Shown: piece by piece, positions 1-29,609 of the stretch | How the letters are laid out: every line of letters begins with the position of its first letter | Position numbering within the stretch: the stretch's first letter is position 1 | From: Desulfobacterales bacterium | Lineage (GTDB): Bacteria > Desulfobacterota > Desulfobacteria > Desulfobacterales > UBA2156 | Assembly: GCA_027025555.1 (NCBI GenBank) | Contig: JALVQN010000074.1 | Coordinates: 1 to 40,952, forward strand | Direction: 5' to 3' | Length of the DNA: 40,952 nucleotides | The notes under the pieces: generated by a model | Told to the model about the DNA's origin: nothing | Seen by the model: the letters and a program-made list of their open reading frames with translations, nothing else | The model's database searches: none | Program-made: the position numbers and the translations under genes

Positions 1-1872
1 GGGCAAGGGAAGGGGCTGCCTCACGGTAACGGTTTTGCCGTCAGTCTTTCGAATCCGCGTGTCTACGGCGACAAAGGAAGTGTAGGCGGTCAAAAGATGA
101 TAGGAAAGCCCCAGGCGCGTGATTTCCGAAATCCGGTCCTTGTCGGCGCCAAGGCGGTTGTCATCGGACAAGGCGGCAATGCGGTGCCGGGCCCAGAGGA
201 ACCTGAGGGCGCTGTTTTGCTTTTCCGGCAAAACAGACGCCACCGGGATCTTTTCCGTTAAAAGACGGTTTCCCAGCTTGCCGGTGACGGTGATCGTGCC
301 TTTGGGCGTTCCCCGCCATTTTCCGAAGACCACCACGGGACGCTCGGCCATGAGATCGGCAACAGAAGGGGGTTGGACATGGAAGGCGTCAAAGTCTCCA
401 TAATCGATGACAATGTCGGTGAGGACGGGCCGTTCGATCATGGCGCGGAAAATTTCGGCCTGGCTTCGGGCGCTTTCGGAATCCGTGACCACAAAGGGCT
501 CCCCCATCCCGGCCCGGGCCATCCCTTCGATGAGGTACCGGTTCACGCTCGATCCGATCCCGAAGGCAAAGAGATTGGCCCGGTTGAGGTTTTTCCGGAC
601 AAGTTCAAAGGCTTCACGTTCCACGGCCACATAGCCGTCCGTGGCAATGATCACGATCCGGGAAAACCCCTCGGGCTTGGGGGAATCCAAGGCCCTTTTC
701 AGGGCGGGCAGGAGCCGCGTGCCGCCGCCGCCCCTCTGCCGCTCAAGGGTTGCCACGGCCGTGCGCACATTCTGCGGGGTGGCGGGAATGGAGCGTGGCG
801 CCAGCATGGAAGACCCTCCGGCAAAGAGCAGGACATTGAACCGATCCACGGGACGCAGTCCGGCAAGGAGCCTTTTGAGCAACTGTTTGGAGGTTTCCAG
901 GGGAAACCCGTGCATGGAGCCGGAAACATCCACGATGAAAATGTACTCCCTGGGCGGGACGGCATCCATGGCCACCCGCTTCGGCGGTTGGATCATCAAC
1001 AGGAAGAAATTTTCCTTTTCCCCTGAAAAAAGCAAAAGGCCGCTTTGAACCCGGGACCCGCCGAGCCGGTATCGCAGGATGAGGTCCCGATTTCCGCCGA
1101 AACGCTCGGAAGGATCCAAAGAGGCCCGGACCCGGCTTTTCCCCTGGTATCGGATGTGCATCTCATGGGAAGGACACGCCACCTCCTGAACGGGCATGCC
1201 GGCGGCAATCCGCACCGATGCATCGAAGCGACAGGGGGAAAGGGTCCCCTGCTTCAGGTACGGGTTGTGGATCCATTCCTCACGGGGAAGCGGTCCGTCT
1301 CCCTGGTCCCCGGTATACCGGGGGCCCACCACCGCGGGATAGACGAAGGTATAAACGCCGTGGCGGGGGACGAGAAGCTCGGTATAGCGCAGCTCCACCC
1401 GGATGACATCCCCGGGCAGGATGTTTCCCACGTTCATCTGGAACACGTTGGGCCGGTGTTGTTCCAGGAGAGAGGCACTTTTTCCCTGGGCCAGGGCTTC
1501 CTTATACCGCTGCCGGGCCTCTTTTCTTTTTTCAACGACGGCTTCCACCGTCCGCGCGCCCACGGTCATCTTCATGGCATAAACCGCCGCCCGGGTGGAC
1601 CCCGGAAAAACATAAACGGCCTCCATGGGGCGTGTCCCCTGGTTTTCATAGACCTGGGACACGGTGACATCCGCGATGACCCCCACAATGTTCACCCGCA
1701 CGGCGGTGGATTTCAGGGGGAAACGATCCACGCTCGGGTCGTCGCTTTGAACGAAAAAATAGGGCGACCGGGTCTGATCCGGCTCCGGGGTTTGCCGGGC
1801 CCACGCGCCCTTTAGTGTGAAAAAACAGATCCCAAAGACCAGCCATTTCGTCCATGGTTTTCGTCTTGCCAT
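1..1872 (-). CDS. VIT and VWA domain secreted protein (3' end outside window)
   Basis: An uninterrupted frame of 624 codons runs from the ATG at 1872 to the left edge, so the C-terminus is missing. The ATG has a strong ribosome site (AAGGAGG, about 5 bases upstream). Residues 1-24 look like a signal peptide (basic MARRK, a hydrophobic stretch, then AWA). Residues about 45-165 match a vault inter-alpha-trypsin (VIT) domain, with Y-x-N-x-G-x-x-P-x-E-A and V-F-P features. A VWA domain spans about 308-480, with an intact metal-binding site: D315-V-S-G-S319, T385 and D412. The stretch LLTAYTSFVAVD near residue 597 is typical of VIT-VWA proteins. Some proteobacterial relatives end in a sortase signal, which cannot be judged here. 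The likely role is a metal-dependent adhesive envelope protein. It is transcribed divergently from lutABC and has an ECF-sigma type promoter upstream. Family assignment is firm; function is inferred. Confidence 0.9.
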   Translation of the reverse strand, partial: MARRKPWTKWLVFGICFFTLKGAWARQTPEPDQTRSPYFFVQSDDPSVDRFPLKSTAVRVNIVGVIADVTVSQVYENQGTRPMEAVYVFPGSTRAAVYAMKMTVGARTVEAVVEKRKEARQRYKEALAQGKSASLLEQHRPNVFQMNVGNILPGDVIRVELRYTELLVPRHGVYTFVYPAVVGPRYTGDQGDGPLPREEWIHNPYLKQGTLSPCRFDASVRIAAGMPVQEVACPSHEMHIRYQGKSRVRASLDPSERFGGNRDLILRYRLGGSRVQSGLLLFSGEKENFFLLMIQPPKRVAMDAVPPREYIFIVDVSGSMHGFPLETSKQLLKRLLAGLRPVDRFNVLLFAGGSSMLAPRSIPATPQNVRTAVATLERQRGGGGTRLLPALKRALDSPKPEGFSRIVIIATDGYVAVEREAFELVRKNLNRANLFAFGIGSSVNRYLIEGMARAGMGEPFVVTDSESARSQAEIFRAMIERPVLTDIVIDYGDFDAFHVQPPSVADLMAERPVVVFGKWRGTPKGTITVTGKLGNRLLTEKIPVASVLPEKQNSALRFLWARHRIAALSDDNRLGADKDRISEITRLGLSYHLLTAYTSFVAVDTRIRKTDGKTVTVRQPLPLP

Positions 1873-1922
1873 GTCGCCTCCTTTTCGATCGGGGTTTTGG
1901 AGTTTCATCGCCTTTTACCCCT

Positions 1923-1950
1923 TCAGACACCGGATCCTGAAAAAAGTTCC
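1923..1950 (-). promoter_or_regulatory. ECF-sigma promoter of the VIT-VWA gene
   Basis: On the minus strand the -35 element GGAACT lies at 1950-1945 and the -10 element TCTGA at 1927-1923, separated by 17 bases. This agrees with the RpoE-like consensus (GGAAC and TCTGA). The same hexamer, spacer length and GGTG just before the -10 occur upstream of the ECF sigma gene at 8145-8118. Transcription would start near 1916, giving a leader of about 44 bases that contains the AAGGAGG ribosome site. Confidence 0.75.
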
Positions 1951-2035
1951 CCAACAGGGGGGTCTTCCGGATGTCTTTTGACAACATCTGCCTTTTTCGA
2001 TACCTCAAGGGCAGCCCCGCAAAGGAAGATACCCC

Positions 2036-2809
2036 ATGGAATGCATGACAAGGACGGCTTCACCCTCCAAAGTCACGCTCTTTATACCGTGCCTGGTGGA
2101 TGCGCTTTGGCCGGAAGTGGCCGAGGCCATGGTCCGTATTCTGCGGCACCTCGGGCTTTCTCTGGATTGCCCCGCCGATCAGACGTGCTGCGGTCAGGCG
2201 GCCTTCAACGGGGGGTATCGCCGGGAGGCGCGCCGCGCTGCAAGGCGTTTCATTGAAATTTTTGAAGGGGCCCAGTGCATTGTCTGCCCTTCGGGATCCT
2301 GTGTGCATATGGTGCGCCGGCACTACCCCGGCCTTTTCCGGGAGGCGCATCCCTGGCGGCGCCGGGCGGAAGCGGTGGCCTCCCGGACCTATGAACTCAC
2401 CGAATTTTTGGTGGATGTCCTGAACGTAAAAGACCTGGGAGCCCGTTTTTCAGGCAGGATCACCTACCATGATTCCTGTCATCTCCTTCGGGGCCTCGGT
2501 GTGAAGGAACAACCCCGCAGCCTTTTGAGACACGTGACGGGCGCCGACTTCGTGGAGATGGAAAACGCCGATTCCTGTTGCGGCTTCGGAGGCACCTTTT
2601 CCCTGAAGTATCCGGATATTTCCGCGGCCATGGTCAACGCCAAGGTCGATCACATCCTTTCCTCCGGAGCGCGGACGGTGGTCGCCTGTGACGCGGGATG
2701 CCTCATCAACATGGCCGGGGCCATGAGCCGCCGGGGGATATCCGTAAACGCCCTGCATATCGCCCAGGTCCTGGCCGGCGTTGATTTCCAGCGCACGTGT
2801 CCCTTTTAA
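2036..2809 (+). CDS. lutA: LutA-type lactate utilisation Fe-S protein
   Basis: This 257-residue protein has two CCG (cysteine-rich) domains, as in LutA/YkgE and heterodisulfide reductase subunit B. The first has C19 in IPCLVD and then a CCGQ near residue 57. The second has HDSCH near residue 150 and CCGFGG near 185, with a further cysteine in DAGC. These cysteines normally bind iron-sulfur clusters. With LutB and LutC it forms the cytoplasmic L-lactate oxidation complex that yields pyruvate. GGAAG lies 7 bases before the ATG at 2036; a second in-frame ATG at 2042 is possible. It is first in a three-gene operon. A TTGACA at 1978-1983 could be its -35 element, but no good -10 follows. The assignment is confident by motif order and by neighbours. 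Confidence 0.93.
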   Translation: MECMTRTASPSKVTLFIPCLVDALWPEVAEAMVRILRHLGLSLDCPADQTCCGQAAFNGGYRREARRAARRFIEIFEGAQCIVCPSGSCVHMVRRHYPGLFREAHPWRRRAEAVASRTYELTEFLVDVLNVKDLGARFSGRITYHDSCHLLRGLGVKEQPRSLLRHVTGADFVEMENADSCCGFGGTFSLKYPDISAAMVNAKVDHILSSGARTVVACDAGCLINMAGAMSRRGISVNALHIAQVLAGVDFQRTCPF

Positions 2810-2859
2810 CCGTATTGAGACACGGCGGTGGCGGGGCCTTGAGGCCCCACGGGAAGACC

Positions 2860-4311
2860 ATGACTCAGCTCCACCCAGAAACTTACAGGGAAGCGGCCCG
2901 GAAGGCCATTGGCGACCCGGTGCTGCAGAAGGCCCTGGCCGGACTCCAGGCACGCTTCGGCCGGGGGGCCGCCGAAGCCTACCGCCGGCTCCCTGAAGGC
3001 CCTCACCTGCGTCATACGGCCCATGAAATCCGGGAACGGGCCGTCGCCCATCTGGACGTGCTCCTGGAAAGGCTTGCGGAAAAGATCCGTCAAAACGGCG
3101 GTCATGTCTTTTTTGCCTCGGATGCAACAGATGCCGTGGAGTATTGCATCAAAGTGGCCCGGCGCCACGGGGTGCGCCGGGTCGTCAAGGGCAAATCCAT
3201 GGTCACCGAAGAAATCGACTTGAATGAGAAGCTGGCCGCAGCGGGTATCGATGCGGTGGAAACCGATCTGGGGGAGTACATCATCCAGCTTGCCGGAGAG
3301 AAACCCTCCCACATCATCGCCCCGGCCATTCATAAGACGCGTTACGACATCGCCGAGCTCTTCGTCAAAAACATGGGCATCCCTTACACCACGGATCCCC
3401 CCGCATTGACCCGGGCCGCCCGAAAAGCCCTCCGGGAAGAGTTTTTGGCCGCCGATATGGGAATTTCCGGCGTCAACATGGCATGCGCGGAGACCGGCCA
3501 CATCACCACCGTCTCCAATGAGGGCAACATCCGGATGGCCACCACCCTGCCCCGGATCCACATGGCCTTCATGGGCATGGAGCGGATCGTAGGGCGCCTG
3601 GACGAATACGAGATTCTCCTGCGCCTGCTGTGCCGGGGCGCCGCCGCCCAGACCATGGCCACTTACGTCAGTTACACGGCAGGCCCCCGCCGGCCGGAAG
3701 ACTCGGACGGCCCCGAGGCATTTCATCTGGTCGTCATCGACAACGGCCGCAGCCGGATCCTGGCCGATCCCCGGTTCAGAGAGATCCTTTACTGCATCCG
3801 TTGCGCCGCATGCCTCAACGTCTGCCCGGTCTACGGCAAGATCGGCGGGCACGCTTACGGCTTTGCCTATTCAGGCCCCATCGGCGCGGTGGTCACGCCT
3901 TTGTTGACCGGCATCAACCGGGCCCGGCACCTCTGCCAGGGCGAGACCCTGTGCGGCGCCTGCATGGAGGCCTGCCCCGTGGCCATCGATCTGCCCCGCA
4001 TGCTCTTGGCGCTTCGGGAAACCTTGGCCTACGGGGACGCCTTTTGGAAAACAACACCCGCAAATCCCCTGGAAGGGCTGGCCTTCAAGGTCTGGTCCCG
4101 ACTCACGGCGAACAGACGGACCTGGGAATGTTTCTTAAAGGCAGCGGCCCTGGGACAGCGCCTTTTCCCCAAAAAGGGCAATCGGCTCCGCCGCCTCCCG
4201 CCGCCTTTTCACGGATGGACCCGGAAGCGCGACTTTCCGTCATTGGCCCCGGAAACCTTCCTGGCACGCTGGCGGAAAAATGAGATAGAGGTAGCAAAAG
4301 ACATCCCATGA
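2860..4311 (+). CDS. lutB: LutB-type lactate utilisation Fe-S protein with LUD domain
   Basis: The 483-residue protein from the ATG at 2860 fits LutB/YkgF in length and order. A LUD domain covers about residues 55-285. A ferredoxin-like region follows, with C-I-R-C-A-A-C-x3-C-P near 311 and C-G-A-C-x3-C-P near 364, giving ligands for two 4Fe-4S clusters. A helical C-terminal part completes it. It should be the electron-transfer subunit of the lactate-oxidising LutABC complex. The frame stays open upstream to a GTG at 2797 inside lutA, but that start adds 21 low-complexity residues and lacks a ribosome site. The ATG at 2860 is also poorly supported (GGGAAG only 3 bases away), so translation may be coupled to lutA. 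The stop overlaps the lutC start as ATGA. Confidence 0.92.
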   Translation: MTQLHPETYREAARKAIGDPVLQKALAGLQARFGRGAAEAYRRLPEGPHLRHTAHEIRERAVAHLDVLLERLAEKIRQNGGHVFFASDATDAVEYCIKVARRHGVRRVVKGKSMVTEEIDLNEKLAAAGIDAVETDLGEYIIQLAGEKPSHIIAPAIHKTRYDIAELFVKNMGIPYTTDPPALTRAARKALREEFLAADMGISGVNMACAETGHITTVSNEGNIRMATTLPRIHMAFMGMERIVGRLDEYEILLRLLCRGAAAQTMATYVSYTAGPRRPEDSDGPEAFHLVVIDNGRSRILADPRFREILYCIRCAACLNVCPVYGKIGGHAYGFAYSGPIGAVVTPLLTGINRARHLCQGETLCGACMEACPVAIDLPRMLLALRETLAYGDAFWKTTPANPLEGLAFKVWSRLTANRRTWECFLKAAALGQRLFPKKGNRLRRLPPPFHGWTRKRDFPSLAPETFLARWRKNEIEVAKDIP

Positions 4312-5144
4312 TCCCTCCCGATCAAAAGGCATTCCTGGGCCGGATCCGTCAGGCTCTGGGCCATGCCCCCCATGAATCCCGCAACGGATCGCATCTTTTC
4401 ATGCAGGGCCCTTCTCGGGAAGAATTGCAGATCCTTGAAAGGTATCGCCAACGGACAGCCAAGGACCGTGAGGAGCTCTTGGAACAGCTCATGGAAGCGG
4501 CCAAACCCGTGCATCTTTGCGTGAGGCGCCTTCCGGATCCGGAGGCGGCCGGCGCAGCGATCGCCGCGCTGGTCCAAGAAAAAGCGCCCGAACCAGACAC
4601 CGTCAAACAGGTGGTGGCCTGGCGCCATGGCCTCATCGACGGGCTGGATTTACATCTTCTCCCGGAACAGTCGGCCGTCAGGGTACATCGAACGCCGCCG
4701 CTGGACCCCCTCATGGATCCCGCCCGGCGTCACGCCGAACGCGAGGCCCAGCGCAGGGCCATTGCAAAGGCCCATATGGGTGTCACCGCCGCCGACTTCT
4801 GCATGGCCGACACGGCCACCCTGGTGCTGCGTGCGCGGCCGGGACAGCCCCGATCCGTGGCCTTGCTCCCTCCCGTCCATGTGGCCGTCATCACCTTGGA
4901 TCAGATCCTATGGGACATGAAGGAACTGTTCGCCCTTTTGCGCTGGGAGGCGCGCTTTGCCGCCCAAGGGCTGTCCCGTTACATGGCCTTCATCTCGGGG
5001 CCCAGCAAGACCGCCGACATCGAGGCCACCATGGTTCACGGCGCCCACGGCCCGAGGGAAGTCCATCTTTTCGTGGTGGCCTCGGCCCCAGGACGCCTTC
5101 AGTACGTGGGCCAGCGATCCACCTTCTCCGCCTTGACGAAATAG
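4308..5144 (+). CDS. lutC: LutC-type lactate utilisation protein, LUD domain
   Basis: The 278-residue third gene of the operon overlaps lutB by four bases (ATGA), a sign of coupled translation. The LUD-family core lies at about residues 150-262. It shows G-V-T-A-A-D-F-C-M-A-D-T-A-T-L, the family pattern of a GxxxADxxIAxTGT-like loop, and the S-G-P-S-K-T-A-D-I-E motif near 230. LutC is needed with LutA and LutB for growth on L-lactate in Bacillus subtilis; its own chemistry is not settled. This copy is somewhat longer than the usual 200-240 residues, with an extended N-terminal half. Its last 15 codons run antisense to the small gene ending at 5099. The assignment is firm from context and motifs. 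Confidence 0.9.
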   Translation: MIPPDQKAFLGRIRQALGHAPHESRNGSHLFMQGPSREELQILERYRQRTAKDREELLEQLMEAAKPVHLCVRRLPDPEAAGAAIAALVQEKAPEPDTVKQVVAWRHGLIDGLDLHLLPEQSAVRVHRTPPLDPLMDPARRHAEREAQRRAIAKAHMGVTAADFCMADTATLVLRARPGQPRSVALLPPVHVAVITLDQILWDMKELFALLRWEARFAAQGLSRYMAFISGPSKTADIEATMVHGAHGPREVHLFVVASAPGRLQYVGQRSTFSALTK

Positions 5145-5317
5145 CAGAACCGATCCGTCTCCAGTCTCTTTCCCGTGACAGGGCAGCGGAGGGTCACCTT
5201 CCGTCCGGTGACCGTCTCGATCTCCCAGTCCCCTCGCCGGGGGCCCTCCGTGATATGGATCTTCTGGCCTGCTGCAAAGGGATACGGCTTGAAAAAGGCC
5301 ACCTCGAATGCATCCAT
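5099..5317 (-). CDS. Small conserved-looking protein of unknown function (72 aa)
   Basis: The frame begins at an ATG at 5317 with a very good ribosome site (AAAGGAGG, 5 bases upstream). It codes for 72 residues with ordinary composition and no signal peptide or membrane segment. The middle, about residues 17-60, looks like a small beta-barrel: H-I-T-E-G-P-R-R-G-D-W-E-I, then V-T-G-R-K-V-T-L-R-C-P-V-T-G-K-R. A KOW/SH3-like fold would fit but is inferred. There is one cysteine in RCPVTG and another in FCYF. Its last 46 bases overlap the 3' end of lutC on the other strand, so the two transcripts converge. I do not recognise a named family. Confidence 0.75.
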   Translation of the reverse strand: MDAFEVAFFKPYPFAAGQKIHITEGPRRGDWEIETVTGRKVTLRCPVTGKRLETDRFCYFVKAEKVDRWPTY

Positions 5318-5366
5318 GGTTTCCTCCTTTGAATGGGCTTGACACCGCCCCTTCTTCTTGTCCTTC

Positions 5367-5393
5367 TTGACAGACAGGCCAATCCCTTATAGC
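5367..5393 (+). promoter_or_regulatory. Possible sigma-70 promoter of the lytic transglycosylase gene
   Basis: TTGACA at 5367-5372 and TATAGC at 5388-5393 are separated by 15 bases, shorter than the usual 16-18. Transcription would begin close to the ATG at 5403, which would leave almost no leader. This is weak support only. Confidence 0.3.
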
Positions 5394-5402
5394 AGATTGG
5401 CC

Positions 5403-6497
5403 ATGAAGTCCCTATGCGCCGTTGTCATGCTCCTGGCCGCAACCGGCCTCACATGCCCTTCCAGGGGCTTTGGAGAAGCCGGCCCCGTGGCTCAAATCCC
5501 TTCCCTGGTTTCTGCCCTGAAAATCGAGGCGCCCCTGGATTTTTGCCAAGAACCGGTGCCCCTGGAAGAACAGGACATCCGGGAACGCTTTGAAAAGGAA
5601 CTCCTCCTTTCCCTGTGGAACCGCGCCCAGGTCCTTTTGTGGTTGAAGCGGTCACGGAGGTACCTTGCGGTCATCGAAAAGAGACTCCAGGAAGCCGGGC
5701 TCCCCCCGGACCTGAAATACGTGGCGGTGGCGGAAAGCGGACTTTTGGAACACGCCCGGTCCAGCAAGGGGGCCGTGGGCATGTGGCAATTCATGGCCGC
5801 AACCGGGAAAAAGTACGGCCTGATCATCAACCGGCAATTCGACCAACGGCGGGACTTTCTGGCTTCCACCGGGGCGGCCGTGCGGTATTTTCGCAACCTC
5901 TACGCCCTGTTCGGTTCATGGACCCTTTCCGCCGCGGCGTTCAACATGGGAGAAAAAGGGCTCAGCGCAGCCATCGAAGCGCAGGGGACCCACAACTACT
6001 ACGAACTCTACCTGCCCCGGCAAACCCAGCGCTTCTTGTTCCGCATCCTTTCAGCCAAGGTCATCCTCTCCGACCCCGAGACGTTCGGGTTTCACTTGGC
6101 CGATGAGGATTTTTATCCCCCCATCCTTTTCGATGAAATCCGGGTGGCCCTCAGGCAACCGGTCCCCCTTCGTCTCATCGCCACGGCGTCCGGAACCCAT
6201 TTCAAGCGGATCCGGGATCTCAATCCGGCTCTCCGCACCCCTTATCTCCCCGGGGGAAATCACGTGCTCCGCCTTCCCAGAGGGGCGGCCGAGGGGTTTC
6301 AAGCCCGGTTAAGGGCCGCTTGCAAGGCCCATCTTGCCGGAAAGGGCCGGGAATTGTATGTGGTCCGCAAAGGAGACAACCTTTCCGCCATCGCGGCCCG
6401 CTTCCGCGTCCCTCTTGCCGCCCTTGTCCTGTGGAACCGGCTGGATCCGCGAAAACCGATCCACCCGGGGCAGCACCTTTTCATCTATTCCAGATAG
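5403..6497 (+). CDS. MltD-like lytic murein transglycosylase with LysM domain
   Basis: The 364-residue secreted protein starts at the ATG at 5403. The frame extends back to a TTG at 5358, but the signal peptide (MKSLCAVVMLLAATGLTC) begins at 5403; its C18 might even be lipidated. The SLT domain lies at about residues 95-235. The catalytic glutamate is probably E111 in VAESGL, followed by G-A-V-G-M-W-Q-F-M and A-A-F-N-M-G, both hallmarks of family 1D lytic transglycosylases. One LysM repeat at about 317-362 (VVRKGDNLSAIAARF) binds peptidoglycan. Together they cleave glycan strands in the periplasm. MltD proteins often have two or more LysM repeats; this one has one. It converges with the anti-sigma gene. 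No strong ribosome site is visible before the ATG. Confidence 0.9.
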   Translation: MKSLCAVVMLLAATGLTCPSRGFGEAGPVAQIPSLVSALKIEAPLDFCQEPVPLEEQDIRERFEKELLLSLWNRAQVLLWLKRSRRYLAVIEKRLQEAGLPPDLKYVAVAESGLLEHARSSKGAVGMWQFMAATGKKYGLIINRQFDQRRDFLASTGAAVRYFRNLYALFGSWTLSAAAFNMGEKGLSAAIEAQGTHNYYELYLPRQTQRFLFRILSAKVILSDPETFGFHLADEDFYPPILFDEIRVALRQPVPLRLIATASGTHFKRIRDLNPALRTPYLPGGNHVLRLPRGAAEGFQARLRAACKAHLAGKGRELYVVRKGDNLSAIAARFRVPLAALVLWNRLDPRKPIHPGQHLFIYSR

Positions 6498-6538
6498 GCC
6501 GAATCTCCCATTTTGAAAAACAGGCCGGCTGAAACAGT

Positions 6539-7504
6539 TTAATCGGCGGTCACGATCCGAACCCGCACCCGGAGGAAATCCCGGCCTTTTGCAAGAGCCT
6601 TGTCCGGGAAAACACTCTCGGCATCCAGCGCCTTGAAGCGCTTTTCAAGCGCCTCAAGCGCCTCTGAAGGAATGCGACAGATCAGAATCTTTTCCTTTGT
6701 CTTTTCAAAAGAGTCGATCACCCTGCCGCCGACCCGAACGACATGGGCCGCCACCCGGGCTTCGAGGCCTTCTTTTTTGACCAAAGGGGCGGACCCGGCC
6801 CCGGCCTTTTTCTTCTCATCTGTTCGGCGATCCGTGAAACGGGCGCCTGCTGCCCCATCCGGCGGCCCTTTCCGCTTCAAGGCCCTCTGATCCGCGGCCG
6901 GGGACACGGCTTTCAGGGGCTTTGTTTTGTCTTCCAGGACCCTCCGGTAGGGGCCTTTTCCTCCGGTCGGCGCGCTCTTTTTCACGTAAAGCACGATCTC
7001 CAACGGCTCCGACATCCTTTTCGGGACGACTTCGGACCACGTTGATTCGGGCGCCGATCCGCCCGTGCGGGCGCCTTCCCGCCCTTTCGTGGATTTGGAA
7101 GCCAAGGTCCTTTCACGGACCTCTCTGACAACGCCCGTGGGCGCCATGACGGGCGGTTGGGTCTGTTTTGGATAAAATACGAAGAAAATCAGCACCCCCG
7201 CCGCCACGGCCGAGGCAAGCTTAAGGGGGACTTTGATCCCAAAGGGGATAAAGCGCCTCTGAAAAAGGCGTCTTAAAAGCCCTTCGGAGGCCATACGCCC
7301 GTGGAGCTGCTCCAAAAAGTCATCCGGCGGCTTCACGGCCTTCAGGGTGCCCAGGGCCTTGGAGACCGCCTGAAGGGAAGCCAGTTCTTCCCGGCACAAG
7401 GGGCATGCCTCCAGATGCTTTTTAATGCGGGAAGCGGCCTTGGCATCCACTGCGCCGTCCATGAATTCGGAAAGGCGCGCCCTTATTTCACGGCATGGGG
7501 TCAT
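6539..7504 (-). CDS. Anti-sigma factor with zinc-finger (ZAS/zf-HC2) domain and single TM helix
   Basis: This 321-residue partner of the ECF sigma overlaps its gene by four bases (ATGA at 7504-7501). The N-terminal anti-sigma domain carries H30-x3-C34-x2-C37 plus C4, the zinc-binding pattern of RsrA/ChrR-type ZAS domains. One membrane helix lies at about residues 92-111. A long low-complexity linker rich in K, E, G and P follows, at about 120-255. The last 60 residues look folded (V-x-x-V-G-G-R-V-I-D, then L-x-x-L-x-x-R-F-K) and would be periplasmic, a possible sensing domain. It should hold the sigma factor at the inner membrane until an envelope signal arrives. Release by proteolysis is possible but not shown here. 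The C-terminal domain has no name that I recognise. Confidence 0.88.
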   Translation of the reverse strand: MTPCREIRARLSEFMDGAVDAKAASRIKKHLEACPLCREELASLQAVSKALGTLKAVKPPDDFLEQLHGRMASEGLLRRLFQRRFIPFGIKVPLKLASAVAAGVLIFFVFYPKQTQPPVMAPTGVVREVRERTLASKSTKGREGARTGGSAPESTWSEVVPKRMSEPLEIVLYVKKSAPTGGKGPYRRVLEDKTKPLKAVSPAADQRALKRKGPPDGAAGARFTDRRTDEKKKAGAGSAPLVKKEGLEARVAAHVVRVGGRVIDSFEKTKEKILICRIPSEALEALEKRFKALDAESVFPDKALAKGRDFLRVRVRIVTAD

Positions 7505-8097
7505 AAAAGCATCCCCCTCAACTTTTCCTTTAGAATCTGCCGGGCCCGGGAAAGCCTCGATTTCACGGTCCCCAGGTTTTTCCCGATCACGTCGGCGATG
7601 GCCTCATAGGAAAGGCCCTCCATGTCCCTTAAAAGGACCACCGCCCGATGTTCCGGTGAAAGGGATAAAATCGCCTCTTGTATTTGAAGGGCCCGTTCTT
7701 TGGCTTCCACGGCCTCCAAGGGCAAAGGATTGCCGTCTTTGAGCTGTAAAGAGGCACCGCCTTCGCCCAGGGACGCTTTTCCGTTGGTGGACAGGGTGTT
7801 GCGCCGGAGCCGATAGGCCACCAAACGCATTCGATTCTTGCAGGCATTGACGGCGATGCGGTACAACCAGGTGGAAAAAGAGGCTTCGAAGCGGAAGCGT
7901 TTCAACCCGTTGAATGCTTTGATGAATGTTTCCTGGGCCAAATCATTCGCCTCGTCGGAATCTCCCAGCATCCGGAAACAAAGGTTGAAGATGCGTCCGT
8001 GGTGCCGTTTGACCAGGGCGTCGAAGGCGCCTCGATTCCCTTCCTGAAAGGCCCTTACCAGGGCCTCGTCCCGGCGGCTATCCCCGTCCCCGGCCAC
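7501..8097 (-). CDS. ECF-type RNA polymerase sigma factor (RpoE-like)
   Basis: Sigma-70 region 2 lies at about residues 20-90 (D-E-A-N-D-L-A-Q-E-T-F-I-K-A-F and F-S-T-W-L-Y-R-I-A-x-N). Region 4 lies at about 140-195 (L-S-Y-E-A-I-A-D-V-I-G, then G-T-V-K-S-R-L-S-R-A-R). There is no region 1 or 3, so this is an ECF (group 4) sigma. The frame opens at a GTG at 8112 (203 residues). I prefer the GTG at 8097 (198 residues): it has AAAGG 7 bases upstream, and the ECF promoter at 8145-8118 should start transcription near 8112, leaving the first GTG without a leader. It is co-transcribed with the anti-sigma gene and is probably autoregulated. Confidence 0.92.
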   Translation of the reverse strand: MAGDGDSRRDEALVRAFQEGNRGAFDALVKRHHGRIFNLCFRMLGDSDEANDLAQETFIKAFNGLKRFRFEASFSTWLYRIAVNACKNRMRLVAYRLRRNTLSTNGKASLGEGGASLQLKDGNPLPLEAVEAKERALQIQEAILSLSPEHRAVVLLRDMEGLSYEAIADVIGKNLGTVKSRLSRARQILKEKLRGMLL

Positions 8098-8117
8098 ACC
8101 CCGGCCTTTCACTCATA

Positions 8118-8145
8118 TCAGACACCCAAAAGGTGAAATAGTTCC
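8118..8145 (-). promoter_or_regulatory. ECF-sigma promoter of the sigma/anti-sigma operon
   Basis: On the minus strand GGAACT at 8145-8140 and TCTGA at 8122-8118 are separated by 17 bases, with GGTG directly before the -10. Together with the identical architecture at 1950-1923 this argues for autoregulation. Sigma genes of this class usually carry their own target promoter. Confidence 0.75.
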
Positions 8146-8358: not shown

Positions 8359-8434
8359 GCCGAGGTAGCTCAGTCGGTAGAGCAGGGGACTGAAAATCCC
8401 CGTGTCGGCAGTTCGATTCTGTCCCTCGGCACCA
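8359..8434 (+). tRNA. tRNA-Phe (GAA)
   Basis: A 76-base cloverleaf with acceptor stem GCCGAGG/CCTCGGC, D-loop AGCTCAGTCGGTAGAGC, anticodon loop CTGAAAA (anticodon GAA), and T-arm with GTTCGATTC. The CCA end is encoded at 8432-8434. Confidence 0.97.
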
Positions 8435-24953: not shown

Positions 24954-27900
24954 ATGAAAGACCACGTCCCCCTTTTCAGGCAACCGAGACGGTGTCTCCT
25001 GACGGCCGCCGCCGGCCTTATCCTTTTTTTCAGCGCCGCATCCTTGGTATCAGGCATCGAGGTCAGCCAGATCCCCATGTCCCAACGGCTCAACCCCGCC
25101 CCGCCCAACGCCATGTTCGTTCTGGACAATTCCGGCTCCATGGACTGGGAGTTCATGACCACGGAAGACAACGGAACGTTTGCCGGCGGGGGGACGGTTT
25201 ACGAGTACCTTTTCGACAATCCGGGGGACAACAACTTTCCGCCGGGCGATATCTACGGAACGATCCTTTCCAACGACGACCGTGGCCTGTGGAAAGCCCA
25301 GTGGTCCGGGTACAACAAGATCTTCTACAATCCCCACAGCCAGTACCTGCCCTGGCCCCGAAAATCGGACGTGGACATCAGCGACCTGGAGCACGTGCGC
25401 TCCAATCCCAACAACGCCACCCCCACCTTCGATCTGACGGCCCAGTACCATTCCATCATCGGTGAAAGGATCATGGTGGACAACACGGACGCCGGATTTT
25501 CCTATTCCGACGCCTCCCACTGGGGAACGACCACCTATCCCAACCAGCAAGGCTCCAACTACCACTTCTCTGAGGATCAGCCGGACAACACGGTGTGGGC
25601 CAAGTGGACTCCGACTCTGCCGGGGCCCGGGACTTACGAAGTCTTTGTCTGGTTCAGGAACGTGGGTTTGCGGGAGCACACCGTCACCTATGACGTGAAA
25701 CACGCGGGGGTCATCACCACGGTCTCCACCATCGGCAACATCACCGGCGGCACCCCCATCAGCCACCACCCCGACGAGGGCCAGGGGGACCAGTGGATTT
25801 CGCTTGGTACTTTCAGGTTCAACGGCCACGGCGAGGAATACGTGAAACTCAACGCCAATCACACCAGAGGCTCGTGCTGCCGCTACGGTGCCGACGCCGC
25901 CATGTTCCAACCCGCCACCATCAGCATCACCCGCGCCCACTACTACACCATCGACGATGCGGACGGCGACGGGGAACAGGATCCCGGAGAGGCCGTTTAC
26001 CTGGTCAACTTCGTCCAGGAAGGCGGCAACTGGGTGCGAAAGTACTACCGGTTCGATGACACCGACGGCGACGACCGGGTGGAAGCCGGGGAGCTGACCG
26101 AGGTGACGGGAAGCGACATCCCGGATGCCGTCAAGCCGGCCGTCTACAAAGAAGACGGCATCTTTGTCCGGTACAAAACCGACACGGAAGACCTCCAGAA
26201 TTTCGCCAACTGGTACTCCTTTTACCGGCGCAGGGAGCTGGCCGCCAAGGCGGCCGTGGCCACCTCCATCACCCGGATCTCCCGGGTCAATGTGGGCTTT
26301 TACACCATCAATCCCGATTACGGCGCCCGGACCGGCGTCCTTCCCGTGAAGGTGGAGACCAACGCCATCATCGTGGACGACAAGGACAGCAACTTCACCC
26401 GCAGCAGCATCTGGTACTGGCAGGAATCCGACTCGCCCAATGCGTGGGAAAACAGCGCATTATACACCACGGAACAAGGGGAATGGGCCAAGTGGACGCC
26501 CACCATCCCTTCCACCGGCACCTATAAAGTCTATACCTGGTACAACTGCTTCAACAACCGGGACACGAAGGCCAAATACACCATCCACCATGACGGCGGC
26601 GATTCCGTGGTCGAGGTGAACCAGCGCCAGGAATCCGGCAATCCCTGCGGGGAGTGGGTCTATTTGGGAGAATACACCTTCAACGAAGGCACGGAAGGCT
26701 ACGTGAAGGTGGAGCGCACGGGAAGTTCCACGGGAAGCAGCACCTTGGCCGACGCCGTGAAGTTCGAGCCCACCAGCGGCCTGGTGGAGTCTGATGAAAC
26801 CGACACCCTTTTGGACATGCTCTATGCCATCGACTCCAACGGCGGTACTCCCCTGCGCGACGCCCTCCATGAGGTGGGGGAATACTACGACCAGACCGAC
26901 GGCGACCATCCCGATTTGGGGGCCTCTCCCTATGAAAGCGAGGAAAACGGCGGGCTCTGCCAGATGGCCTTTGCCATCGCCATGACCGACGGATACTGGA
27001 ACGGCTATTCCCCGGGCGTGGGCAACGCGGACGGCACCGGCGGGTGCCCGGGGGGCGAAATCTGTTCCGGGGTGGCGCCCTGGAGCGACAGCTATTCGGA
27101 CACCCTGGCCGATGTGGCCATGAAATTTTACAAGAAGGACCTTTCCACGAGCCTGCCCGACGAGGTGCCGGAAGACCAGTGCGACAAGGCCAACTGGCAG
27201 CACATGGTCACCTACACGGTCTCTTTCGGGGTGACCGGAAACATCGATCCCGAGGAGCACGGCTCCTGCCCGGACCCCGGGACCGCAATCGACTGGCCGG
27301 ACCCGGGGGATGCCGACGACCCCGACAAGATCGACGACCTCTATCACGCGGCCGTCAACGGCAGAGGCGTCTTTTTCAGCGCCCAGGATCCCGAGGAACT
27401 GGTGGACGCCCTGGTCTCCATCCTTCAAAGCATCCAGGCCAAATCCGCGTCCGGGGCCTCGGTGACCGCAAACGGTGAAAACCTCACCGGTACAACCCGG
27501 GTTTACCAGGCCCGCTTCGACACCTCGGACTGGTCCGGAGACCTTATGGCTTTTGCCATCGATCCGGAAACCGGAACCGTCTGCACCGATGCCCTCCTTT
27601 CCGGTCAGATGCCCGAGTTCTGCGCCAAGGTATCCAGGCCGATGTGGAGCGCCCAGGAAAAACTCCACGACCTTATTTCCCAATCCGGGGGGGCCGGCCT
27701 GCGCACCGTTGTCACGTACAACCCGGGTACCGGCGACGGCATTCCCTTCCGGTATCCGACGACCAGCGGCTACGGCTCCGACGGGCTGACCCGGGACCAG
27801 CTTCTGGCCCTGGATCCTTCCTGGTCCGAGAGCAACGCCACCCGGGCCCAAAACCTCGTCGCCTACCTCCGGGGGGAAGCGGTTACGGGCTTCAGGAACA

Positions 27901-29609
27901 GGACAAAGGCCCTGGCCGACCTGATCCATTCCGCGCCGCTCCTATATTTACATGAAGATAAAGATAAAACGTACGGGACCCTTTTCGTGGGGAGCAACGG
28001 GGGCATGCTGCATGCCTTCAACATGGACGACGGCACGGAACGGTTCGCCTATGTGCCCAATCTCGTGTTCGACAACCTGAAATACCTGGCGGAAAACGAC
28101 TACAGCCACCTCTTTTTCGTGGACAATTCCCCGGCCCTCCGGGTGATCCCGTATTCAAGCAAAACGAATATGATCAATCGCGTCCTTCTGGTCTGCGGCC
28201 TGGGGGCCGGGGGGAAGGGGTATTTCGCCCTGGACGTGAAAGATGCCCACACCATCACGTCGGGGGCTTCCAGCGAAAGCACGGTCAGGAAATGGGTCAT
28301 GTGGGAATACCCGAATTCGGCCACCCCTTCCACAGATGCCGATGATCTGGGGTTGAGTTTCAGCCGGGCTTTCATCGTGAAGAAAAACAAGATCGACAAC
28401 CTGGATCCCAATGAATCTGAACAGTGGGTGGTGATTTTCGGCAACGGCTACAACAGCACCAATGGGCATGCCGTGCTTTTTGTCCTGGATGCCCTCACCG
28501 GCAAGCTGCTGCGCAAAATCGACACCGGTGAAGGCGGCAACAACGGGCTCTCCACCCCCACCCTCATCGATCCCAACAACGACGGCAGGGTCGATTACGT
28601 CTATGCCGGGGATCTGAAGGGAAATTTATGGAAATTCGACCTGACATCGGGGGATGCGGCCAACTGGTCCGTGGCTTTCAATGACGGCACAAACCCGGTG
28701 CCTCTCTTCCGCGCCGGGACCTCCCAGCCCATCACCACCAAGCCCGAGGTCATGTATCATTGCAAAAAGCACGGCTATATTGTGGTCTTCGGCACCGGAA
28801 AGTTTATCGGGGCTCCGGACCGGGAGACTGAAAATTACCCGGTCCAGTCCATCTACGGCATTTGGGACTTTGCAGACGACGCCGAAGACAGCGGATTCAT
28901 CGGGCCGATTGCAAACCGTACAACGGGAAAACTCTCCTATCCCTCGGGTTTTTTCCTGGCAAAGCAGGAGGAGATCTATTTCGGCACCCATTTTGGACAC
29001 GCGCTCCGGGTCTTGAGCGACAATCCGGCCAATTACTATACGAAGACGGATCCCGAAGCCGGGCAAGCGCCCGACCCCGCCCTTCACCCGGAATACGCCA
29101 ACGATGGTGTGGACAACAACGGGGACGGCAACATCGATGAAGGGGATGAAGGGTTGACCCACCTGGGCTGGTTCTTCGATTTCCCCAACACGGAGGCCGA
29201 TTTCAAGGGAGAACGGGTCATCGTGGATCCCCTGATCCGGGAAGGAAGGGCCATTGTCATCTCCTTTTCCCCGCGGGATTCGGCGTGCTCGGGCAGCGGG
29301 TGGTCCCTGGTCCATGAAATGGACGCCTGCAGCGGCGGCCGTCTTTCTGAGGCGGTATTCGACATTAACGGCGACCACAAGATCACCGAGGAAGATATGA
29401 TCACGATCACCATCAACGGGGTCCGAGTGAAAGTTCCACCCACCGGCATCGCCTATCTCGGCCTGCTGCAGCCCCCGAAGATCCTGCGCCTGAAAACCCC
29501 CGGCCAACCTCCGCGGGAAGTCAAGCTCTTCAACAACGAAACCGCCACCATGACGCCCCTTTTCGAGAAGGCGGAAAAACGGGGAATCTACTACTGGCTG
29601 GAAAAATAA
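24954..29609 (+). CDS. pilY1: PilY1-type pilus tip protein with VWA split by two golvesin-like domains
   Basis: A 1551-residue secreted protein. The signal peptide covers about residues 1-34. The VWA metal site starts with D58-N-S-G-S62-M. The rest of the VWA, with G-G-T-P-L-R-D-A-L and A-M-T-D-G-Y-W, appears only after residue 615. Between them lie two modules like the golvesin C-terminal domain, at about 171-320 (I-M-V-D-N-T-D-A-G-F-S) and 470-605 (I-I-V-D-D-K-D-S-N-F-T). Each has W-A-K-W-T-P, T-Y-x-V-x-x-W and D-A-x-x-F-x-P. Calcium-loop motifs occur near 337 and 365. From about 830 the PilY1 beta-propeller follows, with its own calcium loop D-P-N-N-D-G-R-V-D near 1205. A C-terminal tail holds further D-x-N-x-D loops. 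It should serve in surface adhesion and pilus retraction control. GGAG precedes the ATG at 24954. Confidence 0.95.
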   Translation: MKDHVPLFRQPRRCLLTAAAGLILFFSAASLVSGIEVSQIPMSQRLNPAPPNAMFVLDNSGSMDWEFMTTEDNGTFAGGGTVYEYLFDNPGDNNFPPGDIYGTILSNDDRGLWKAQWSGYNKIFYNPHSQYLPWPRKSDVDISDLEHVRSNPNNATPTFDLTAQYHSIIGERIMVDNTDAGFSYSDASHWGTTTYPNQQGSNYHFSEDQPDNTVWAKWTPTLPGPGTYEVFVWFRNVGLREHTVTYDVKHAGVITTVSTIGNITGGTPISHHPDEGQGDQWISLGTFRFNGHGEEYVKLNANHTRGSCCRYGADAAMFQPATISITRAHYYTIDDADGDGEQDPGEAVYLVNFVQEGGNWVRKYYRFDDTDGDDRVEAGELTEVTGSDIPDAVKPAVYKEDGIFVRYKTDTEDLQNFANWYSFYRRRELAAKAAVATSITRISRVNVGFYTINPDYGARTGVLPVKVETNAIIVDDKDSNFTRSSIWYWQESDSPNAWENSALYTTEQGEWAKWTPTIPSTGTYKVYTWYNCFNNRDTKAKYTIHHDGGDSVVEVNQRQESGNPCGEWVYLGEYTFNEGTEGYVKVERTGSSTGSSTLADAVKFEPTSGLVESDETDTLLDMLYAIDSNGGTPLRDALHEVGEYYDQTDGDHPDLGASPYESEENGGLCQMAFAIAMTDGYWNGYSPGVGNADGTGGCPGGEICSGVAPWSDSYSDTLADVAMKFYKKDLSTSLPDEVPEDQCDKANWQHMVTYTVSFGVTGNIDPEEHGSCPDPGTAIDWPDPGDADDPDKIDDLYHAAVNGRGVFFSAQDPEELVDALVSILQSIQAKSASGASVTANGENLTGTTRVYQARFDTSDWSGDLMAFAIDPETGTVCTDALLSGQMPEFCAKVSRPMWSAQEKLHDLISQSGGAGLRTVVTYNPGTGDGIPFRYPTTSGYGSDGLTRDQLLALDPSWSESNATRAQNLVAYLRGEAVTGFRNRTKALADLIHSAPLLYLHEDKDKTYGTLFVGSNGGMLHAFNMDDGTERFAYVPNLVFDNLKYLAENDYSHLFFVDNSPALRVIPYSSKTNMINRVLLVCGLGAGGKGYFALDVKDAHTITSGASSESTVRKWVMWEYPNSATPSTDADDLGLSFSRAFIVKKNKIDNLDPNESEQWVVIFGNGYNSTNGHAVLFVLDALTGKLLRKIDTGEGGNNGLSTPTLIDPNNDGRVDYVYAGDLKGNLWKFDLTSGDAANWSVAFNDGTNPVPLFRAGTSQPITTKPEVMYHCKKHGYIVVFGTGKFIGAPDRETENYPVQSIYGIWDFADDAEDSGFIGPIANRTTGKLSYPSGFFLAKQEEIYFGTHFGHALRVLSDNPANYYTKTDPEAGQAPDPALHPEYANDGVDNNGDGNIDEGDEGLTHLGWFFDFPNTEADFKGERVIVDPLIREGRAIVISFSPRDSACSGSGWSLVHEMDACSGGRLSEAVFDINGDHKITEEDMITITINGVRVKVPPTGIAYLGLLQPPKILRLKTPGQPPREVKLFNNETATMTPLFEKAEKRGIYYWLEK

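Follow-up and report, generated by a model that had tools for sequence, protein, structure and literature searches.

Two ECF-type promoters and their genes

The stretch of DNA analysed here (the window) is contig JALVQN010000074.1, positions 1-40,952, of a Desulfobacterales bacterium (assembly GCA_027025555.1, with a genome of 2.68 Mb). On its minus strand lie a gene for an extracytoplasmic function (ECF) sigma factor, a gene for a membrane anti-sigma factor directly 3' of it, and a gene for an exported protein with VIT and VWA domains that runs off the contig end (Table 1). Sigma factors of the RpoE/AlgU class recognise GGAAC/TCTGA-like sites, and a first-pass annotation of this DNA had pointed out a GGAACT-N17-TCTGA element before both the sigma gene and the VIT-VWA gene. 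Both copies are exact, and two occurrences in the window compare with 0.07 expected from dinucleotide shuffles; the further resemblance claimed for them, GGTG directly 5' of TCTGA and a T/A-rich run 3' of GGAAC, is likewise present at both.

Table 1. Features of the two transcription units and of the genes between them (window positions)
Feature	Position	Strand	Remarks
ECF promoter of the sigma gene	8118..8145	-	-35 GGAAC 8145-8141, -10 TCTGA 8122-8118
ECF sigma factor gene, 203 amino acids	7501..8112	-	start GTG 8112; Pfam Sigma70_r2 and Sigma70_r4_2
Membrane anti-sigma factor gene, 321 amino acids	6539..7504	-	Pfam zf-HC2
ECF promoter of the VIT-VWA gene	1923..1950	-	-35 GGAAC 1950-1946, -10 TCTGA 1927-1923
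Shine-Dalgarno AAAAGGAGG of the VIT-VWA gene	1877..1885	-	read from sequence; AGGAGG-type site in most orthologs
VIT-VWA protein gene with signal peptide	1..1872	-	Pfam VIT and VWA; 3' end lost at contig end, base 1
LutABC-type lactate oxidation genes and MltD-type LysM transglycosylase	2036..6497	+	between the two units; G002 arranged alike

A weight matrix built without the window's genus ranks the two promoters first and second in the window (scores of 20.2 and 12.8; next 7.9). Applied to 200 shuffled windows, the same matrix gives best scores that average 5.2, but the largest of these is 18.2, so that the sigma site is not outstanding by score alone. As a control for spacing, a fixed-length pattern that is one base too long matches neither promoter. 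When the whole genome is scanned with the looser GGAACT-N16-18-TCTGA, as the annotation had proposed, the pattern is not enriched (5 matches, against 3 in a reversed control); by itself it is thus no proof, and we therefore shifted the question to related genomes.

The sigma protein contains only sigma regions 2 and 4, as is typical of the ECF type. Its closest solved structures are 6in7 ("RNA polymerase sigma-H factor") and 1or7 ("sigma-E factor"), which we take to be AlgU and sigma E, and an RpoE/AlgU-like ECF sigma factor is the best reading of the sequence. Against the RpoE equivalog TIGR02939, however, it scores 142.7 bits, below the cut-off of 236.15, and its target set (see below) appears narrower than an RpoE-like regulon.

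The anti-sigma gene overlaps the sigma stop codon by 4 bases (ATGA) and is adjacent to the sigma gene in relatives too; the two genes are likely co-transcribed, judging from this arrangement. The protein carries an HxxxCxxC zinc finger of the ZAS type in an N-terminal helical domain, with H30, C34 and C37 invariant. In the structural model this domain is confident, while the C-terminal alpha/beta domain is small and only fair, and a long disordered linker lies between them; a hydrophobic helix at about 94-110 reads as the membrane span, with the zinc finger on the cytoplasmic side. Searched by structure, the C-terminal domain resembles PulL/PulM-type domains only weakly, and these matches are not used as evidence.

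For the VIT-VWA gene, the most likely start is ATG 1872 and not the longer open reading frame start at 1908, and a leader of ~45 bases would be expected from its promoter. The translation includes a MIDAS-type DVSGS. The full-length ortholog of the same genus (G002; G numbers denote genomes, and L numbers loci, of the relatives compared) has 788 amino acids and a C-terminal AgmX/PglI-type domain (NF033768, 41.2 vs a cut-off of 40), while the copy in the window ends at the contig edge before the position of this domain. Against TIGR03788 the incomplete window protein scores 386 bits and the full G002 ortholog 400.7, both under the cut-off of 551.65. In G006, the VIT-VWA gene (L067:5627-7975) is broken by one in-frame TAA, with the sigma promoter retained.

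Conservation of the sites and of their spacers

The sigma factor has seven orthologs at 49-67% identity, with a clear gap to the next matches (at most 39%), and all seven have a GGAAC-type promoter of equal length directly upstream of their genes; the same promoter recurs elsewhere in the order and the phylum, although some loci of the most distant families are exceptions. Seven genomes have both genes (the window, G002, G006, G008, G020, G021 and G026), and in these the element is found 64-83 bases upstream of the start of the VIT-VWA gene. The two genes may be adjacent, a few kilobases apart or, in G021, 64 kb apart, and both promoters are kept regardless; in the same genomes GGAACNNTT-N12-13-GTCTRW matches at the two promoters only, bar one extra match in G006. 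Comparison of the upstream regions in relatives, which the annotation had suggested, thus finds that, in dozens of genomes of the order and the wider phylum, the gene pair and both promoters have been conserved together.

The site also follows the presence of the sigma gene. Among the first set of relatives without the sigma factor, the element was not found before the VIT-VWA gene wherever the upstream sequence was sufficient. Tabulated over genomes with the sigma factor, all long-form VIT-VWA genes have the site (21/21) and none of the short forms does, and most of the long-form genes tabulated from genomes without the sigma factor lack the site. Two genomes (G123 and G213) contain both forms side by side, the long form with the sigma site and the short form without; G111, where a contig end cuts into the sigma match and leaves it partial, showed a short-form VIT-VWA gene only. 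In Candidatus Magnetobacterium casense (Nitrospirota), too, the sigma ortholog is preceded by this promoter (L119:9931-9958), but no VIT-VWA gene was found in the 20 kb of sequence examined there.

The exact sequence GGAACNTTT-N13-GTCTAA occurs 52 times in 389 genomes of the order. By coordinate comparison, 45 of these occurrences precede one of the two genes: 22 the sigma gene, which in one case (G043) is a broken copy, and 23 a VIT-VWA gene or fragment; one (G314) is near a contig end where the VIT-VWA gene is expected, and six are elsewhere. GGAAC and GTC are invariant in both site collections, and the spacer is variable. Two spacer lengths, N17 and N18, occur across the phylum, and wherever both promoters of a genome were seen they have the same one. 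It is N18 in G591, G583 and G630 (with ATCTAA instead of GTCTAA at the sigma site of G630), and N17 in G657, G421, G393, G429, G567 and within the order. On the sigma tree, parsimony requires two changes of spacer length, one of which is forced by well-supported branches. The matched spacers are a natural record of the co-evolution of a sigma factor with its promoters. What the comparison shows is that the sites exist and are conserved, that they are linked to the sigma gene and that other sites are nearly absent.

A probably leaderless sigma transcript and the proposed circuit

ECF transcripts usually start about 4-5 bases past the -10 box. In the window the sigma start codon lies 5 bases downstream of that box, and in the first set of loci it lies 4-5 bases past it in 25 of 27 (the start in L117 was read by eye). 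An earlier start is excluded in the window by an in-frame TGA at 8115-8113, and it is ruled out in the same way at the many loci that have an in-frame stop in or just past the -10 box. Since the start codon sits where ECF transcripts usually begin, the sigma-anti-sigma mRNA is probably leaderless, beginning at or next to the start codon. A second in-frame GTG, at 8097 in the window and also present in G002, offers an alternative start with a short leader. The VIT-VWA genes, by contrast, have leaders of at least 36 bases. The conserved position of the start codon makes a leaderless sigma gene directly testable. As a universal rule the leaderless start is rejected, as several distant families have the start overlapping the -10 box or elsewhere. 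At L379-L381, L385, L388, L389 and L393, which belong to distant families, the -10 box overlaps or directly adjoins the start codon of the sigma gene, and mRNA made from such a promoter would start within this codon or lack it altogether.

We suggest the following circuit. The anti-sigma factor would hold the sigma factor inactive at the membrane until an envelope signal leads to its release, possibly through cleavage of the anti-sigma factor. The freed sigma factor would then transcribe from GGAAC-TTT-N13-GTCTRA promoters: from its own, giving positive feedback through the probably leaderless mRNA, and from that of the VIT-VWA gene, giving an mRNA with an ordinary leader and a strong ribosome site. 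In this scheme, binding of the sigma factor to the sites, the transcript starts, the release by cleavage and an envelope role of the VIT-VWA protein are what we infer. Autoregulation and co-transcription with the anti-sigma gene are common among ECF systems (PMC8103513).

We consider it very probable that this RpoE/AlgU-like sigma factor positively regulates itself, is paired with a zinc-finger anti-sigma factor and is dedicated to a single exported VIT-VWA protein, with essentially two promoters in this genome. The first-pass proposal that the sigma factor controls both itself and the VIT-VWA gene is supported, at the level of sequence, by the conservation of the promoters with the gene pair, the absence of the site in most relatives lacking the sigma factor and the matching spacers. 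Several observations weigh against this assignment. The consensus was drawn partly from the same genes and weaker targets may escape it; "only two sites" therefore depends on stringency. Two of the six exact sites elsewhere in the order are in G191, where exact promoter copies precede genes for other exported proteins, a DUF4139 protein (L282:2453-4076) and a 989-amino-acid protein with VIT, TPR and DUF2135 domains (L283:2422-5534), and G191 shows no close ortholog of the sigma factor. The VIT-VWA genes of G121, G133, G213, G277 and G300 have the site in genomes where no sigma gene was found, which we ascribe, without proof, to incomplete assemblies. Moreover, the pattern of presence and absence partly reflects a single event shared by several branches of the tree.

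The strongest alternative is that the sigma factor has a broader, RpoE-type envelope regulon of which the two promoters are the best-conserved members. The extra targets in G191 fit such a regulon, as does the strict consensus that the promoter scans require; since the site there stands before two further exported proteins, of which one has a VIT domain, the regulon can grow. However, with one mismatch allowed the consensus still finds the two promoters and no third site in the window's own genome (control, 5), and the further one-mismatch sites of sigma-bearing genomes are no commoner than in the reversed control; we regard a broader regulon as rather unlikely. It is far less probable that another ECF sigma factor, or several, recognises both sites and that the neighbouring sigma gene is merely a further target. 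In other phyla, sites resembling GGAAC/GTCT are also found close to unrelated ECF genes, so this type of site is not private to the sigma factor described here, and in G191 the sites are present although no close ortholog was found. Yet across the order the presence of the site tracks this ortholog, and in the window's own genome only a single other ECF match, a weak one, was found. Chance resemblance of the two sites, for which the missing enrichment of the loose pattern could be cited, is practically refuted by the conservation of both loci over many families despite diverged spacers and flanks, and we give it next to no weight.

Among known systems, RpoE-RseA of E. coli and AlgU-MucA of Pseudomonas have similar -35 and -10 sequences, an adjacent anti-sigma gene and a promoter of their own. 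By sequence they belong to the same ECF class as the window's sigma factor, but their envelope regulons are large and their anti-sigma proteins of other kinds, and the present sigma factor appears to have about two promoters. SigW-RsiW of Bacillus also has a membrane-anchored zinc-finger anti-sigma factor, whose N-terminus is weakly matched by that of the present protein while the C-terminal part differs; its regulon is large, its promoter sequence different and its host Gram-positive. The proteobacterial dedicated sortase system (target TIGR03788, two-component regulators TIGR03785/TIGR03787) likewise couples a VIT-VWA surface protein to a dedicated regulator, but the window protein is under the TIGR03788 cut-off, the long form has no sorting tail, and the regulator proposed here is an ECF sigma factor and not a two-component system. 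The system described here probably follows a familiar pattern, in which an ECF sigma factor regulates its own operon and is paired with an anti-sigma factor; its particular points are the newly assigned, conserved target and the very small target set. The earlier remark that this regulon had not been described agrees with our literature search, which found no paper joining an ECF sigma factor, the VIT domain and von Willebrand factor, although a matching group may already stand in the reference ECF classification. In uncultured lineages it is seldom known which genes an ECF sigma factor controls; here, comparison alone points to a specific regulator and its target, a member of a widespread envelope protein family, and the pair is conserved over a phylum.

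The short VIT-VWA form and neighbouring genes

In a quick tree of uncertain rooting, the short VIT-VWA forms and the long genes without the site are mostly grouped, and nested among the site-bearing genes. The short forms, which are often present in relatives without the sigma factor, end in a PEP-CTERM-like tail. A family scan finds exosortase K and a CreB/CreC-like pair with the short-form gene at L077, and exosortase K at L079; at other loci the same gene set is suggested from the open reading frame map only. Upstream of most short-form genes (L076-L081, L335-L346) are TTCA[CT]-N6-TTCA[CT] repeats, which were not seen before the sigma-linked long form. These repeats match the cre tag of the E. 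coli CreBC system, TTCAC-N6-TTCAC (PMC3660660), and as a lead we suggest that CreBC is the likely regulator of the short form in relatives. We can only speculate on a fuller picture, in which a private sigma line with a leaderless sigma mRNA has, in most species, one VIT-VWA protein as its sole output, this protein signals back to the anti-sigma factor, and the line was exchanged in evolution for CreBC/exosortase K control of the sister form; taken as a whole, we think this doubtful.

The LutABC and MltD genes between the two units were rejected as members of the circuit: no consensus site precedes them, and they do not lie between the units outside the genus. Further along the window, after pilin-like genes, a gene at 24954-29609 encodes a 1551-amino-acid exported protein that resembles, from its translation only, a PilY1-type pilus protein. 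A tRNA-Phe gene (8359-8434) lies on the opposite strand upstream of the sigma promoter.
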